A stretch of DNA of 39,753 nt. It comes from Microgenomates group bacterium RBG_16_45_19 (lineage in GTDB: Bacteria; Patescibacteriota; Microgenomatia; UBA1400; RBG-16-45-19). Location: the NCBI GenBank assembly GCA_001803415.1, contig MHDC01000017.1:1-39753 (forward strand). The letters are read 5' to 3'. The translations under genes and the position numbers were made by a program. This document shows positions 19,278-24,739 of this stretch, piece by piece; position 1 is the stretch's first letter, and each line of letters begins with the position of its first letter. Under the pieces are notes generated by a model that was not told where the DNA came from, searched no databases, and worked only from the letters and a program-made list of their open reading frames with translations.

Positions 19278-21302
19278 ATGCTTTCGGCTCTCCTCACCAT
19301 TTCGGCTGCTTATATGATTACCTGGTTGCTGCAGGTCATTGGTTGGCCTTATTTGGTTTGGGCTCTCGGCTCTCGTTTGCGCGATCGAGGCTGGTCACTG
19401 GCTCGGCTCCTGACATGGTTGGCTGTTAGTCTGATCATTTGGTCTCTGGCATACTTCAAATTGCCGCTTAATACCGTTTGGGCCATTTGGTTGGTACTCT
19501 TTATTTTAGCTGTTGGTGCCGTTTCCTTGACTCTTCGCTGCCGGTCTCAGATCAAACAGGTGTTTCAGGAAGCCAAATGGTTGCTGCTGGTGGCGGAAAG
19601 TCTGTTTCTTTTCGGCTTCTTTTTCTTAAGTCTGGTCCGAGGCTTTAATCCGGCCATCCTCGATCTGGAAAAATTTATGGATGCCGGTTTTATGGCCTCA
19701 TATTTACGCGCCCCCACCTTGCCGGCGCCTGATATGTGGTTGGCAGGGGAGACGATCAATTATTATACCTTTGGCCACTTCATGGGTTCGGTGATGACTC
19801 GGATTTGGCTCTTGCCTATTAGCTTAAGCTATAACTTGCTCCTCGGTTTGATTATGGCTTTAAGCCTTAGCCTCAGCTTCTCGGTGGTGGTTAATTTCTT
19901 ATCCCCCCTGTTTCCCTCCCGCCTCAAGCCCTTAATCCTCGGTGGCTTGGTGGGTACACTCCTGGTTAACCTTGGCGGCAACAGCCATACCTTCTGGTAT
20001 CTCTTCAAACATCACGGTTGGACGGGTTATTGGTATGCTGATGCCACCCGTTTTATCGATCGGACCATCCACGAATTTCCGGCCTATTCCTATGTGGTGG
20101 CCGACTTGCACGCCCATGTCTGGGGTTTACCCTTAGTCTTAACTTATTTCATTTTTCTGATGCTTTGGTCTAGGGCTTTGTTTCTGCCCCAGCGAAAAGC
20201 TGGCTTAGGGCTGGCCGCTACCTTAGGCTTATTTTTAGGCATCTTTGCCATGACCAGTACCTGGGACGCTTTAATTTACACCTTATTAACCGGCCTGGTC
20301 AGCTTTGTTCTCTTGTTAGCCTATCCCCCTTTAATCAAACCGCTGTTATTTTCCGCCATGGTGGCTCTCCCGACGGCAACGCTTACCGCTTTACCTTGGT
20401 TTCTGTCATTCACCTCGATTGCTGAAGGTATCGCCGTCGCCACCCAACATTCCCCCCTCTGGCAGTTGGCTGCTCTCTGGACTGGCCATTTCCTCCTCAG
20501 CCTATTGGCCTTAATTACCGCTTTCATCGCTTTAATTAAACACCGCCACCGCTTAAGCCCAACCGCTATCGCCACTTATCTCCTGATTGTTGCCTTGGTG
20601 GTGACCGCCTGGTTGTTATTAATCTTACCCGAGTTGATATTCTTCAAAGATATTTATTCTGGTCATCCCCGGGCCAACACCATGTTTAAATTGACATACC
20701 AGGCCTTTATTATGATGAGCCTCACCGGCGGCTGGCTCTTTGGCACTCTCTTTCTTAAACGCCTAGCGCCCCATTGGCTCCGGCTCATTGCCGGTCTTGG
20801 TCTCATCTTAGTCACCGGCGCAGTACTCTGCTTTCCCTTTTTTGCCTACCGCGACTACTACAACCGCCTTAAAGGCTTTAAAGGTCTTGATGGCCATCAA
20901 TGGCTTGAAGCTCAGTACCCCGACGATTACCAAGCCATCCTTTGGTTAAATAGCCAAGTCCGCGGTCAACCGGTGATCCTTGAGTCATGGGGTGAAAGCT
21001 ACACTACCTTTGATCGAGTCTCTTCGATTACCGGCCTGCCGACCGTTTTGGGCTGGCGAGTGCACGAGTGGCTCTGGCGTGGTGGCTTTGACATTCCCGG
21101 TGCCCGGACTACCGAAGTCGATACCATTTTCAGTAACCCCACCACTGTCACTAGCCAAGAACTCCTCCAGCGTTATCAGGTGCAATATATTTTTATCGGC
21201 GCCAAAGAACGGGAACAATACCCCAATCTCAATCAAGCTGCCTTTAAATCTTTAGGTGACGTCGTCTTCGAATCCGGCTCTACCTTCATCGTCAAACTTT
21301 AG
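19278..21302 (+). CDS. DUF2298 (YYY-type) multipass membrane protein
   Basis: 674 residues with about 14 hydrophobic segments and a soluble C-terminal domain of about 140 residues. The hallmark of this family is in loop 1: DMWLAGETINYYTFGHFMGSV, preceded by the acidic FMDAGF segment. Later conserved pieces are EFPAYSYVVADLHAHVWGLP and GHPRANTMFKL. Family members are predicted GT-C-like transferases and co-occur with HPDERF proteins, as here. The last 39 bases including the TAG stop are repeated at 24701-24739. Before that duplication the gene end would have overlapped the tpiA end by 11 bases. Confidence 0.85.
   Translation: MLSALLTISAAYMITWLLQVIGWPYLVWALGSRLRDRGWSLARLLTWLAVSLIIWSLAYFKLPLNTVWAIWLVLFILAVGAVSLTLRCRSQIKQVFQEAKWLLLVAESLFLFGFFFLSLVRGFNPAILDLEKFMDAGFMASYLRAPTLPAPDMWLAGETINYYTFGHFMGSVMTRIWLLPISLSYNLLLGLIMALSLSLSFSVVVNFLSPLFPSRLKPLILGGLVGTLLVNLGGNSHTFWYLFKHHGWTGYWYADATRFIDRTIHEFPAYSYVVADLHAHVWGLPLVLTYFIFLMLWSRALFLPQRKAGLGLAATLGLFLGIFAMTSTWDALIYTLLTGLVSFVLLLAYPPLIKPLLFSAMVALPTATLTALPWFLSFTSIAEGIAVATQHSPLWQLAALWTGHFLLSLLALITAFIALIKHRHRLSPTAIATYLLIVALVVTAWLLLILPELIFFKDIYSGHPRANTMFKLTYQAFIMMSLTGGWLFGTLFLKRLAPHWLRLIAGLGLILVTGAVLCFPFFAYRDYYNRLKGFKGLDGHQWLEAQYPDDYQAILWLNSQVRGQPVILESWGESYTTFDRVSSITGLPTVLGWRVHEWLWRGGFDIPGARTTEVDTIFSNPTTVTSQELLQRYQVQYIFIGAKEREQYPNLNQAAFKSLGDVVFESGSTFIVKL
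21264..21302 (+). repeat. Left copy of a 39-bp perfect direct repeat flanking the subtilase insert
   Basis: Bases 21264-21302 match 24701-24739 at 39 of 39 positions, with mismatches immediately outside on both sides. The repeat is the last 12 codons plus stop of the DUF2298 gene. Confidence 0.97.
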
Positions 21303-21327
21303 TTATTCGCTAACACTCTTACCATAC

Positions 21328-21333
21328 TATAAT
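21328..21333 (+). promoter_or_regulatory. TATAAT box 6 nt before the subtilase ATG (leaderless)
   Basis: A consensus TATAAT ends 6 bases before ATG 21340, so transcription would start at or next to the start codon. No convincing -35 hexamer precedes it. It lies inside the insert, so the cassette carries its own promoter. Confidence 0.6.
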
Positions 21334-21339
21334 GAATCC

Positions 21340-24300
21340 ATGGCCTCTCAAGGGTTTATAAAAGGCATATTATTTGGGAGCGGTCTTCCAATTATATTAA
21401 TATCATCTGCTTATTTTATAAGTTCAATTCATAACCAAATTTATGCTAAAACGGACGCTATCACTAAAACCGCTCCTTACCCCCCAACTTATCCGTCACA
21501 CGTGGCCGGTGAATTTCTGATTAAACTGAAACCCAATACTGATTTCAACGATTGGAAAATCAAGACATCAAAGACAGTCAAATATCAACATATCTCCAAA
21601 CTCTACCTTCCTCAATCCGAACACCAGTTTGTTAAAGTTACCCTGGATGATACCAGGGAAAAACCCTTAAAAATCATTAGCCAGTTAGGCCAAAAAGCAC
21701 AACTTCCTTCCGAGATCGAAACTCAGATTCACAACCTTAGTCAAGATGACCAAGTCGTCACAGTCGAACCCAACTACCTTTATTCCACGAATCTGACCCC
21801 TAACGATCCACTCTTTCCCAACCAATGGTATTTACCCAACATTTCCGCCGAAGCAGGTTGGGAACATGGCGTAGGATCTTCGCCCGTTACGATTGCCGTT
21901 CTAGATACGGGTATTGACATTAACCACGAAGACCTTCAACCAAACATTTGGATTAATCGTGCTGAAATTCCCCAGGATGGTATTGATAATGATCTCAATG
22001 GCTTCGTTGATGACGTAAATGGCTGGGATTTTGTGGCAACCGATCCTACACTTTGTGCGTCAGGTGAAGATTGTCTTATCCCTGATAATAATCCAAGTGA
22101 TTTTGTTGGTCATGGAACCCATGTTGCTGGAATTATTGGTGCCCTAGGTAACAATCAAATCGGAATAGCCGGTATTTGCTGGCAGTGCACAATTATGCCC
22201 ATTCGGGCTGGATATCTTGGATCTGACCACAACGGATATTTAGATACCGAGACCATAATTGAGGGATTATATTATGCGGCCGACAACGGTGCTCAAATCA
22301 TCAATATGAGTTTTGGTAGCCAATTTTACTCCTCCATCCTTGACGCTGCCCTAAAAGAATTAGCAGCACAAAATATTATTCTAATTGCCTCAGCCGGTAA
22401 TTATAGTAGTGATTACCACACATATCCCGCCTCACTCAATCAAGTTATTGCCGTCGCTGCCACTGATTCAAACAATCACAGAACTAATTTTTCCAGTTAC
22501 GGTTCTTGGGTGGATATCGCTGCTCCAGGAGAGAGGATTCTGTCCCTCAGGGCTCCAGGCACTGATATGTATCAAGACCCTAACCATGTCGTAGCCGATC
22601 AGTATTACCTTGCTTCAGGTACTTCCATGTCATCCCCCATTATTGCTGGCGTCGTGGCTTTAAGACTTTCACATACACCTAATCTTGATCAAATCCAACT
22701 CATGAAATTGTTGAAAAATGCACATGATCCACCTATTAGCAACGAGCCGATTGGTTTTGGGAAAGTAAATCTACTCCAATGGTTAATTCAATCACCATCC
22801 ATTTCTCAAGTGCAGTTAACTAACCCTCAAGAAAACAATTACCTTTTCACTCCCATCCAACCATCACTCTCTATCTACGGCACTGGTCAACAAGTCACTA
22901 ATTATCGGTTAGAATATAGCCAAGGCTTATATCCTACTAGTTGGCAAACTATCATTGACTCCGACCAGCCTCTAAATAGTTCCAATCCCCAATTACTCAC
23001 TACTTGGACCCCTCAAGTCTCACCAGATCAATCATATACCTTACGTTTCACTGGATTTGACCAATCCAACAATCCAGACGTTGCCCTTACCCGATTGTCT
23101 TTTTATGATCCAAATCTTGGATGGATGACTAATCTTGGCAGTCCTTACATATCTTCACCTGTTACTGGCGATCTAAATGCTGATGGCCAATCCGAGATTA
23201 TCGTTGTTAACACTCCTACTGCCTTTTCCAACGACTTGAATTTGAATATCTTCAATGCCGATGGCACCTCATTTCTCCCTTCACTACCTCTCAGGATTCA
23301 GGGGGGCTATGGTGGTTTCGGATCGACTCCGGCCATTGGGGACATTAATCAAGACAACCATCAAGAAATAATCTTAGCCGGTACCAATAAATTTGAGTAT
23401 CCATTTCAAGAAGAAGGTACTCTAACCATTATCTCTGATCTTGGCATTCCCCTTCCAGGGTGGGATCCAAAAACTATTGACGATGGTATAAGTTTAGATT
23501 CTAGATGGTGTCGTGGTTGGCAACACCCAGACCGACACTGCGGGGGCTTTCAAAGTGCTCCAGTTTTAGCTGATTTAGATAAAGATGGAAATCTAGACAT
23601 TATTATATTAAGCAATTTTGGGAAATTATATGTTTTCCATGGTGATGGTAGCTCTCTATCTCCCTTTCCACTTCTACTTGGCCAGCCATATTGGTTCGGT
23701 AATACACATAACTCACCTGCTGTTGGTGATCTTAATCAAGATGGCAACCTGGAAATTGTCGTTGCTCTAGGTGAAAATAATGTTCCTGAGGCGGGCACGT
23801 ATATTTATGTCATTGACCATACAGGTACAGTTCAACCAGGCTGGCCTAAAATTATCATTGGTGATGATCCTTCCCAAGCTACCTACTACAGCAGTATTAA
23901 CGCTCCACCTATATTGGTTGATATCGACCAAGATCACAAATTAGAAATATTCGTCCTCTCATGGAATGAACAAGGTGGCCTAATTCATGGCTGGAATGAA
24001 GATGGCTCAAATATTCCCGGATGGCCTGTCAGTGTGCCGGGAGCAATGTATAGTCTTTCTGCTGGCCGATTTTCCAACTTCACTTCACCTGTGATTTTTG
24101 CAGCTACCTATAGACCAGATTTTCCCCAAAAAGTTTTCGCCTTTGCACCTGAGGGTCAACCTTTACCGAATTGGCCACTTAATACCAGCATTAATGCTAT
24201 GACTGGCCAAGCTATCCTTGGTAATTTCGATACAGATTCTGACCAAGAAGTCTTTTTTAATTCAGGTATTACAAACCAGGGCATTGCTTATAATTATGAT

Positions 24301-24675
24301 GGTTCATTAGCTGAAGGTTGGCCCAAAAACATCAGAACTTCGTCATGGCGCACTCCCACTTTAATCTATCCGGAGATGAACCGAAGTTTAATTGTGATTG
24401 CCGACACTAATTCTGGCTTTCTTCAAGCATTTGAACTCCCCCTTCTTCAAATAATGCAATCTAGTTGGGGAACTTTTCAACAAAATACTTTTCATACAGG
24501 CGTCCTACCGGGACGATTAAGCTATACGCTAGTAGATTTAGATAATGACGGGGATACCGATATCCTAGATTACTTTATCTTTCAACCTCTTTATGGGGAC
24601 ATCGAAAATCATGGTGATATCAATCAAGATGGTCTAACTAATTTGTACGATTTTAATCTCTTAATTCAACCTTGA
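21340..24675 (+). CDS. Secreted S8 subtilase with FG-GAP repeats and dockerin-like end
   Basis: 1111 residues from ATG 21340, preferred because the signal/anchor helix (about residues 5-28) then begins the protein; the longer reading from 21256 would overlap DUF2298. A propeptide-like region (about 45-150) precedes the S8 domain. Catalytic D189 is in VLDTGID, H258 in GHGTHVAG, S429 in GTSMSSP, with the oxyanion Asn in ASAGN. Residues about 490-590 form a beta domain. About six FG-GAP/VCBS-type repeats follow, with calcium-loop patterns such as GDLNADGQSEI, ADLDKDGNLDI and GDLNQDGNLEI. The last 50 residues hold two dockerin/EF-hand-like loops (DLDNDGDTDILDY and DINQDGLTNLYDF). It is probably an exported, calcium-stabilised protease acting at or outside the surface. 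It fills the A+T-rich insert alone. Confidence 0.92.
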   Translation: MASQGFIKGILFGSGLPIILISSAYFISSIHNQIYAKTDAITKTAPYPPTYPSHVAGEFLIKLKPNTDFNDWKIKTSKTVKYQHISKLYLPQSEHQFVKVTLDDTREKPLKIISQLGQKAQLPSEIETQIHNLSQDDQVVTVEPNYLYSTNLTPNDPLFPNQWYLPNISAEAGWEHGVGSSPVTIAVLDTGIDINHEDLQPNIWINRAEIPQDGIDNDLNGFVDDVNGWDFVATDPTLCASGEDCLIPDNNPSDFVGHGTHVAGIIGALGNNQIGIAGICWQCTIMPIRAGYLGSDHNGYLDTETIIEGLYYAADNGAQIINMSFGSQFYSSILDAALKELAAQNIILIASAGNYSSDYHTYPASLNQVIAVAATDSNNHRTNFSSYGSWVDIAAPGERILSLRAPGTDMYQDPNHVVADQYYLASGTSMSSPIIAGVVALRLSHTPNLDQIQLMKLLKNAHDPPISNEPIGFGKVNLLQWLIQSPSISQVQLTNPQENNYLFTPIQPSLSIYGTGQQVTNYRLEYSQGLYPTSWQTIIDSDQPLNSSNPQLLTTWTPQVSPDQSYTLRFTGFDQSNNPDVALTRLSFYDPNLGWMTNLGSPYISSPVTGDLNADGQSEIIVVNTPTAFSNDLNLNIFNADGTSFLPSLPLRIQGGYGGFGSTPAIGDINQDNHQEIILAGTNKFEYPFQEEGTLTIISDLGIPLPGWDPKTIDDGISLDSRWCRGWQHPDRHCGGFQSAPVLADLDKDGNLDIIILSNFGKLYVFHGDGSSLSPFPLLLGQPYWFGNTHNSPAVGDLNQDGNLEIVVALGENNVPEAGTYIYVIDHTGTVQPGWPKIIIGDDPSQATYYSSINAPPILVDIDQDHKLEIFVLSWNEQGGLIHGWNEDGSNIPGWPVSVPGAMYSLSAGRFSNFTSPVIFAATYRPDFPQKVFAFAPEGQPLPNWPLNTSINAMTGQAILGNFDTDSDQEVFFNSGITNQGIAYNYDGSLAEGWPKNIRTSSWRTPTLIYPEMNRSLIVIADTNSGFLQAFELPLLQIMQSSWGTFQQNTFHTGVLPGRLSYTLVDLDNDGDTDILDYFIFQPLYGDIENHGDINQDGLTNLYDFNLLIQP

Positions 24676-24700
24676 AATCCACCAGCCATTTAGTCAAGCT

Positions 24701-24739
24701 GTCTTCGAATCCGGCTCTACCTTCATCGTCAAACTTTAG
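24701..24739 (+). repeat. Right copy of the 39-bp direct repeat
   Basis: Identical to 21264-21302. Its last 11 bases are also the last codons and stop of the minus-strand tpiA gene (24729-24739). The DUF2298 reading frame in this copy is a remnant with no upstream gene. Confidence 0.97.

Follow-up and report, generated by a model that had tools for sequence, protein, structure and literature searches.

The window, i.e., the whole analysed stretch of 39,753 bp, contains the gene for a DUF2298 membrane protein and, on the opposite strand, the triosephosphate isomerase gene tpiA, between which a segment with a single gene for a secreted S8 subtilase is situated (Table 1). This segment is bracketed by two copies of a direct repeat, which are identical at 39 of 39 positions and correspond in sequence to the end of DUF2298: copy 1 translates to VFESGSTFIVKL followed by the stop, which is the C-terminus of the DUF2298 protein. 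The TAG stop codon of DUF2298 (21300-21302) lies inside copy 1, and the stop codon of tpiA (24729-24731, minus strand) inside copy 2. These coordinates agree with an earlier note on this DNA, which had described the repeat as the last 12 codons plus the stop of DUF2298 and had placed the end of tpiA in the second copy. If the insert and one repeat copy (21303-24739) are removed and the flanks are joined, two intact convergent genes overlapping by 11 bp are obtained, as had also been claimed there; DUF2298 and tpiA are both intact because the duplicated 39 bp span both of the overlapping gene ends.

Table 1. Features of the DUF2298/tpiA locus (positions in the window) and the repeat-flanked inserts of the genome (contig:position, locus label in brackets)
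Feature or cargo	Position	Strand	Repeat	Remarks or target
DUF2298 / chlor_Arch_YYY membrane protein, 674 aa	19278..21302	+		PF10060, E=5e-77; TIGR03662; target gene 1
Direct repeat copy 1, 39 bp	21264..21302	+		Final 12 codons plus stop of DUF2298
Inserted segment, 3,398 bp	21303..24700	+		GC 0.417; without recombinase, without terminal inverted repeats
S8 subtilase cargo gene, 1,111 aa	21340..24675	+		PF00082, E=4.6e-52; PF13517
Direct repeat copy 2, 39 bp	24701..24739	+		Identical to copy 1; holds final 11 bases of tpiA
tpiA, triosephosphate isomerase, 234 aa	24729..25433	-		PF00121, E=5e-58; target gene 2
Subtilase	C17 insert		39 bp, 100%	DUF2298 3' end
Gp49/HigB toxin + HTH antitoxin	C34:21964-22741 (L125)		46 bp, 98%	After lipoprotein-like gene
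YoeB-like toxin	C45:55305-55955 (L138)		61 bp, 38 exact	After folD
Fic protein	C23:51764-53164 (L119)		145 bp, 88%	Host gene 3' end duplicated
AbiEii	C1:2059-3034 (L053)		48 bp, 92%	After DNA polymerase IV-like gene
Cupin + reductase + racemase-like genes	C24:1499-4212 (L076)		58 bp, 84%	After LptB-like ABC gene
MNT + HepT	C29:4547-5250 (L081)		43 bp, 84%	After tRNA-binding-protein-like gene
AbiEii/Fic/SDR	C18 insert		62 bp, 90%	Contig edge
ATPase + DUF4325	C11:929 insert		42 bp	Not at clear gene end
	C45:79595 insert		66 bp	Not at clear gene end

A pattern search allowing up to 3 mismatches located the 39-bp repeat at only two places in the 1,369,726-bp assembly. For comparable repeat pairs (at least 42 bits, within 8 kb), the expectation over the whole genome is estimated at less than 0.01, such that chance is excluded for this pair; the 39-bp direct repeat bracketing a one-gene insert is confirmed as real.

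Concerning base composition, the insert exhibits a GC content of 0.417, the adjoining kilobases on its two sides having 0.505 and 0.537, i.e., it is A+T-richer than its surroundings, as had been noted before, and it lies at the 3.5th percentile among genome windows of equal size. The GC3 of the subtilase gene (0.34, versus a genome median of 0.52) falls within the lowest 1.6% of genes. The cargo protein possesses both the S8 domain and the Asp/His/Ser triad by which a peptidase S8 is recognised (DTGID at 189, HGTHVAG at 258, GTSMSSP at 427), together with FG-GAP repeats (PF13517), an N-terminal hydrophobic stretch and, at its C-terminus, a dockerin-like double repeat, which further ORFs of the genome share. 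Its closest solved relative is deseasin MCP-01 (3vv3), and the top-scoring S8-domain match among 89 relatives is 36% identical. The subtilase is most likely an exported protease that was horizontally gained, and nothing suggests a role in moving DNA. The listed ORF begins with GTG at 21256, overlapping repeat copy 1; the likely start is the ATG at 21340. An own promoter of the insert, claimed in the earlier note, did not find support: the only candidate is a TATAAT at 21328-21333, 6 nt before the ATG, where no sigma-70-type pair scores, and 7 promoter-like sites were found versus 9.4 expected in shuffled sequence. An Rfam scan of the window gave no match to an RNA family.

As already stated in that note, there is no recombinase within the insert, the subtilase being its sole gene; nor does an integrase adjoin it, the Phage_integrase matches of the genome being situated on other contigs. 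The inner ends of the insert (80 bp each) exhibit no inverted match of at least 7 bp, hence no terminal inverted repeats, and no direct matches either. A DNA transposon or insertion sequence was rejected, since terminal inverted repeats are lacking and the duplication is 39 bp long instead of short and fixed.

A comparison of the junction among related genomes, as the earlier note had proposed, revealed an empty tpiA/membrane-gene junction in eight family- or order-level relatives (G001, G033, G041, G045, G069, G073, G076, G079). In all of these, tpiA is positioned tail-to-tail with a membrane gene, with the two stops -12 to +12 nt apart and no insert between them, and the membrane proteins have a C-terminal motif ..YIxIGPxE.. 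in common. Because these eight keep the junction without an insert, the empty site represents the conserved state; among the subtilase matches in 89 relatives, none is situated beside tpiA. In the nearest genome, G001, which belongs to the same family, the neighbour of tpiA resembles DUF2298 over the C-terminal ~95 aa only (28%) and is a distant homologue, such that a conserved junction is described here rather than a strict orthologous pair. Across families, the gene downstream of tpiA alternates between a convergent ..IGPxE.. membrane protein and codirectional genes (L005, L010, L015, L019 and others versus L002-L008).

When each contig of the draft assembly (45 contigs, 87% complete) was compared with itself, blind to genes, about ten inserts between direct repeats, 0.5-3.6 kb in size, were left after filtering (Table 1), i.e., the earlier note missed about nine further inserts of the same kind, most of which carry genes of toxin-antitoxin type. 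Their cargo was named partly by family matches and partly by inspection; the C18 insert may be a paralogue tail, and two weak pairs (C14:13753 and C37:5530) were left outside the ten. The repeat sequence is different at every insert, with no common motif visible by eye, and repeat lengths range from 39 to 145 bp, most of them between 39 and 66 bp. In nine of the ten inserts the GC content is low (at or below the 12th percentile). Eight of the ten repeats overlap a gene 3' end or come close to one, and not one does so at a 5' end. When 45-bp segments are drawn at random, a 3' end is touched by 5.8% of them and a 5' end likewise by 5.8%, with 7.8% containing no gene. As 3' ends make up 30% of the tolerable sites, the presence of eight out of ten inserts there corresponds to P = 0.0015.

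Concerning the divergence of repeat copies, a stop and missense changes have arisen in the orphan copy after the LptB-like gene (C24), and the repeat after the DNA polymerase IV-like gene (C1) ends short of the stop codon, the host gene having gained 4 codons from the insert. Both cases fit a target duplication followed by drift, and the gain of 4 codons would not be expected of a gene-restoring att site. The copies around the Fic insert (C23) differ mainly at synonymous or non-coding positions (6 synonymous versus 2-3 non-synonymous codons), which would also fit an element that brought its own gene tail, the pattern of e14 in icd, with an old duplication as the alternative.

The relative G080 (L214:1080-1798) provides an independent case, in which a homologous HigBA-like (Gp49+HTH) module (antitoxin 52% identical) adjoins another gene at its 3' end; the repeats are 20 bp long (19/20) and include the stop codon. 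In G064, a module of this type is bracketed by 38-bp intergenic repeats. The complete relative G011 contains no clear insert at a coding 3' end, which indicates that the process is not universal; at 664301-670112 it possesses a true integrase element with tRNA-derived repeats at its bounds.

These data establish an insertion relative to a conserved empty junction, a duplication, a foreign composition, and a recurrence with unrelated repeats. They are best accounted for, with a probability of roughly 0.6 by our own estimate, by a non-site-specific, target-duplicating insertion of foreign subtilase DNA at DUF2298/tpiA, in a lineage that gained other modules likewise. A foreign fragment with one secreted-subtilase gene would have entered the cell, perhaps by natural transformation, and would have joined at the convergent 3' ends of DUF2298 and tpiA without a recognised site. 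While the incoming DNA was being repaired or recombined, tens of target bases would have been duplicated, presumably with no site-recognising recombinase being involved, and several other small modules would have been gained by the same lineage in the same way. ComEC is present in the genome and Ku was not found in the 87%-complete assembly, for which reason NHEJ by Ku was rejected as insertion route and DNA uptake followed by illegitimate, duplication-forming recombination appears to be favoured; Patescibacteria, to which this bacterium probably belongs judging by the small genomes of its order, are thought to acquire genes partly via competence (PMC12455944). With an insertion point at or beyond the stop, survival alone does not explain the duplication of tens of coding bases ahead of it, such that the duplication looks intrinsic to the mechanism. 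The strong 3'-end bias, however, could be a sign of real targeting and would then count against a non-site-specific insertion.

A 39-bp direct repeat that restores the gene whose 3' end it occupies corresponds to the classic layout of an att site, and e14 integrates in icd with the gene 3' end as such a site. SGI1 does the same in trmE (PMC8409611); both elements exhibit gene-restoring direct repeats derived from the gene 3' end, as found here, whereas the present inserts differ from them by the lack of an integrase, by their single-gene size, and by a new repeat at each insert. The subtilase segment might accordingly be a small integrative element, or the decayed remnant of one, that used the DUF2298 3' end as att, the tyrosine recombinase having acted in trans or having since been lost. 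We consider this rather unlikely: four tyrosine recombinases of the genome pass the Pfam cut-off, the synonymous-biased divergence between the C23 copies would be in line with it, and G011 demonstrates a tRNA-repeat-bounded integrase element in a relative, but no recombinase lies inside or near the insert, its inner ends are devoid of inverted repeats, and an independent decay of ten elements would be unparsimonious. Furthermore, one defined-site enzyme in trans cannot account for about ten inserts with ten unrelated repeats of variable length and without a visible common core; a single site-specific recombinase is unlikely for this reason, and att-type integration by one common recombinase is disfavoured. 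Of the two mechanisms offered in the earlier note, horizontal gain by a duplication-forming event consequently fits better than an att-type or trans-mobilised cassette, as the repeats differ per insert and target.

The bias towards 3' ends (and away from 5' ends), the fairly narrow length range of most repeats, the many inserts in one genome, and the homologous TA module likewise inserted in G080 could instead point to a dedicated sequence-tolerant machinery, for instance a transposase- or Cas1-like integrase acting in trans, which would set long staggered cuts at gene ends and fill them in to yield duplications of 39-66 bp. Repeat lengths of 20 to 145 bp and the lack of common ends argue against it, no candidate gene was identified, and an enrichment at gene ends is also obtainable by survival selection in a gene-dense genome, such that we regard it as very unlikely. 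In a further reading, the order as a whole would possess a dedicated sequence-tolerant mechanism that places integrase-free-looking modules of one to three genes at gene 3' ends and duplicates the gene end, the target being protected by design; this, too, appears distinctly unlikely. That one repeat copy is a false join made by a metagenome assembler is conceivable insofar as the window represents one contig from a draft assembly, and it is extremely improbable in view of the fact that the DUF2298 end needs copy 1 and the tpiA end copy 2, that the base composition shifts at the insert, and that other inserts possess diverged copies which no assembler would make.

Non-site-specific, target-duplicating insertion has a counterpart in Helicobacter pylori, where a little-studied type of gene gain, insertion with long target duplication, was first reported, with restriction-modification genes as cargo (Nobusato et al. 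2000, as described in PMC1643837, PMC3031569, PMC3874152). The view that events of this type are undescribed, which the earlier note had put forward for these bacteria, is thus not supported. According to these passages, the target duplications in H. pylori are long and variable, 'in the order of 100 bp' (PMC3874152). According to the accounts of Nobusato et al. 2000 and Furuta et al. 2010 given in these papers, the H. pylori inserts are likewise small, lack a transposase of their own, have repeats that represent target sequence, and exhibit, as in the present genome, a long and variable duplication and an addiction-type cargo; a DNA-uptake gene in the host lineage (here ComEC) is likewise common to both. 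In the subtilase insert the direct repeats are copied from the target, and the duplications within this one genome, at 39 to 145 bp, are long and differ in size, in contrast to the short duplications of constant length made by transposons. The pattern of the subtilase insert and its companions matches this type of insertion, with a different cargo and lineage. Going by the same passages, the cargo in H. pylori consists mostly of restriction-modification genes, whereas subtilase, TA-type and metabolic genes are found here; the duplications measure about 100 bp versus mostly 39-66 bp; and the events were seen there by strain comparison, and here from the genome sequence and family- or order-level relatives. 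The inserts studied here, moreover, cluster where genes have their 3' ends, and their host is a Patescibacteria-like bacterium with a small genome.

The nearest mechanistic frame is homology-facilitated illegitimate recombination together with the small variable segments of bacterial genomes, for which, in the cited part of PMC2884548, illegitimate or homology-facilitated joining is proposed and about 10% are direct-repeat-flanked. Those segments are, as here, small non-mobile inserts, but the cited part gives no account of gene-3'-end duplications around foreign cassettes. In Microcystis, direct repeats fence a parDE-like module next to the caspase gene maOC1 (PMC7935541); there, too, TA genes directly follow a host gene and are enclosed by two identical direct repeats, whereas these repeats are 152 bp long, begin 14 bp past the stop codon, and harbour inverted repeats, unlike those described here. 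About ten inserts, each with its own target duplication, constitute a direct record of acquisition events, i.e., of how small transposase-less modules such as TA pairs and single enzymes enter gene-dense, reduced genomes. They make the mechanism testable with regard to the length of the duplications, the bias towards gene ends, the decay of copies with age, and the sufficiency of DNA uptake, and they suggest that what is seen with restriction-modification genes in Helicobacter also applies to other cargo and to a distant lineage.

Several further repeats from the self-comparison were dropped from the list of inserts: inverted repeat pairs in C1, C4, C14 and C38, a pair of tRNAs in C4, a dispersed hairpin in C36 (by inspection), a group I intron in C14, a collagen-like ORF in C3, and, by inspection, secreted paralogues in C32, C44 and C45:1-18000. 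The intron (Rfam RF00028) is situated in the 23S rRNA gene (L115:9233-12334) and is adjoined by a homing-endonuclease-like ORF of 158 aa. The region C3:2089-6651 (L055) consists of long repeats with 9-base units (GGATCAACN-type), read as a collagen-like Gly-Ser-Thr protein. In C45:1-18000 (L097), large secreted paralogues that have their ends in common and possess a dockerin-like C-terminus are arranged in tandem, and near-identical blocks of 140-260 bp are found between neighbours.
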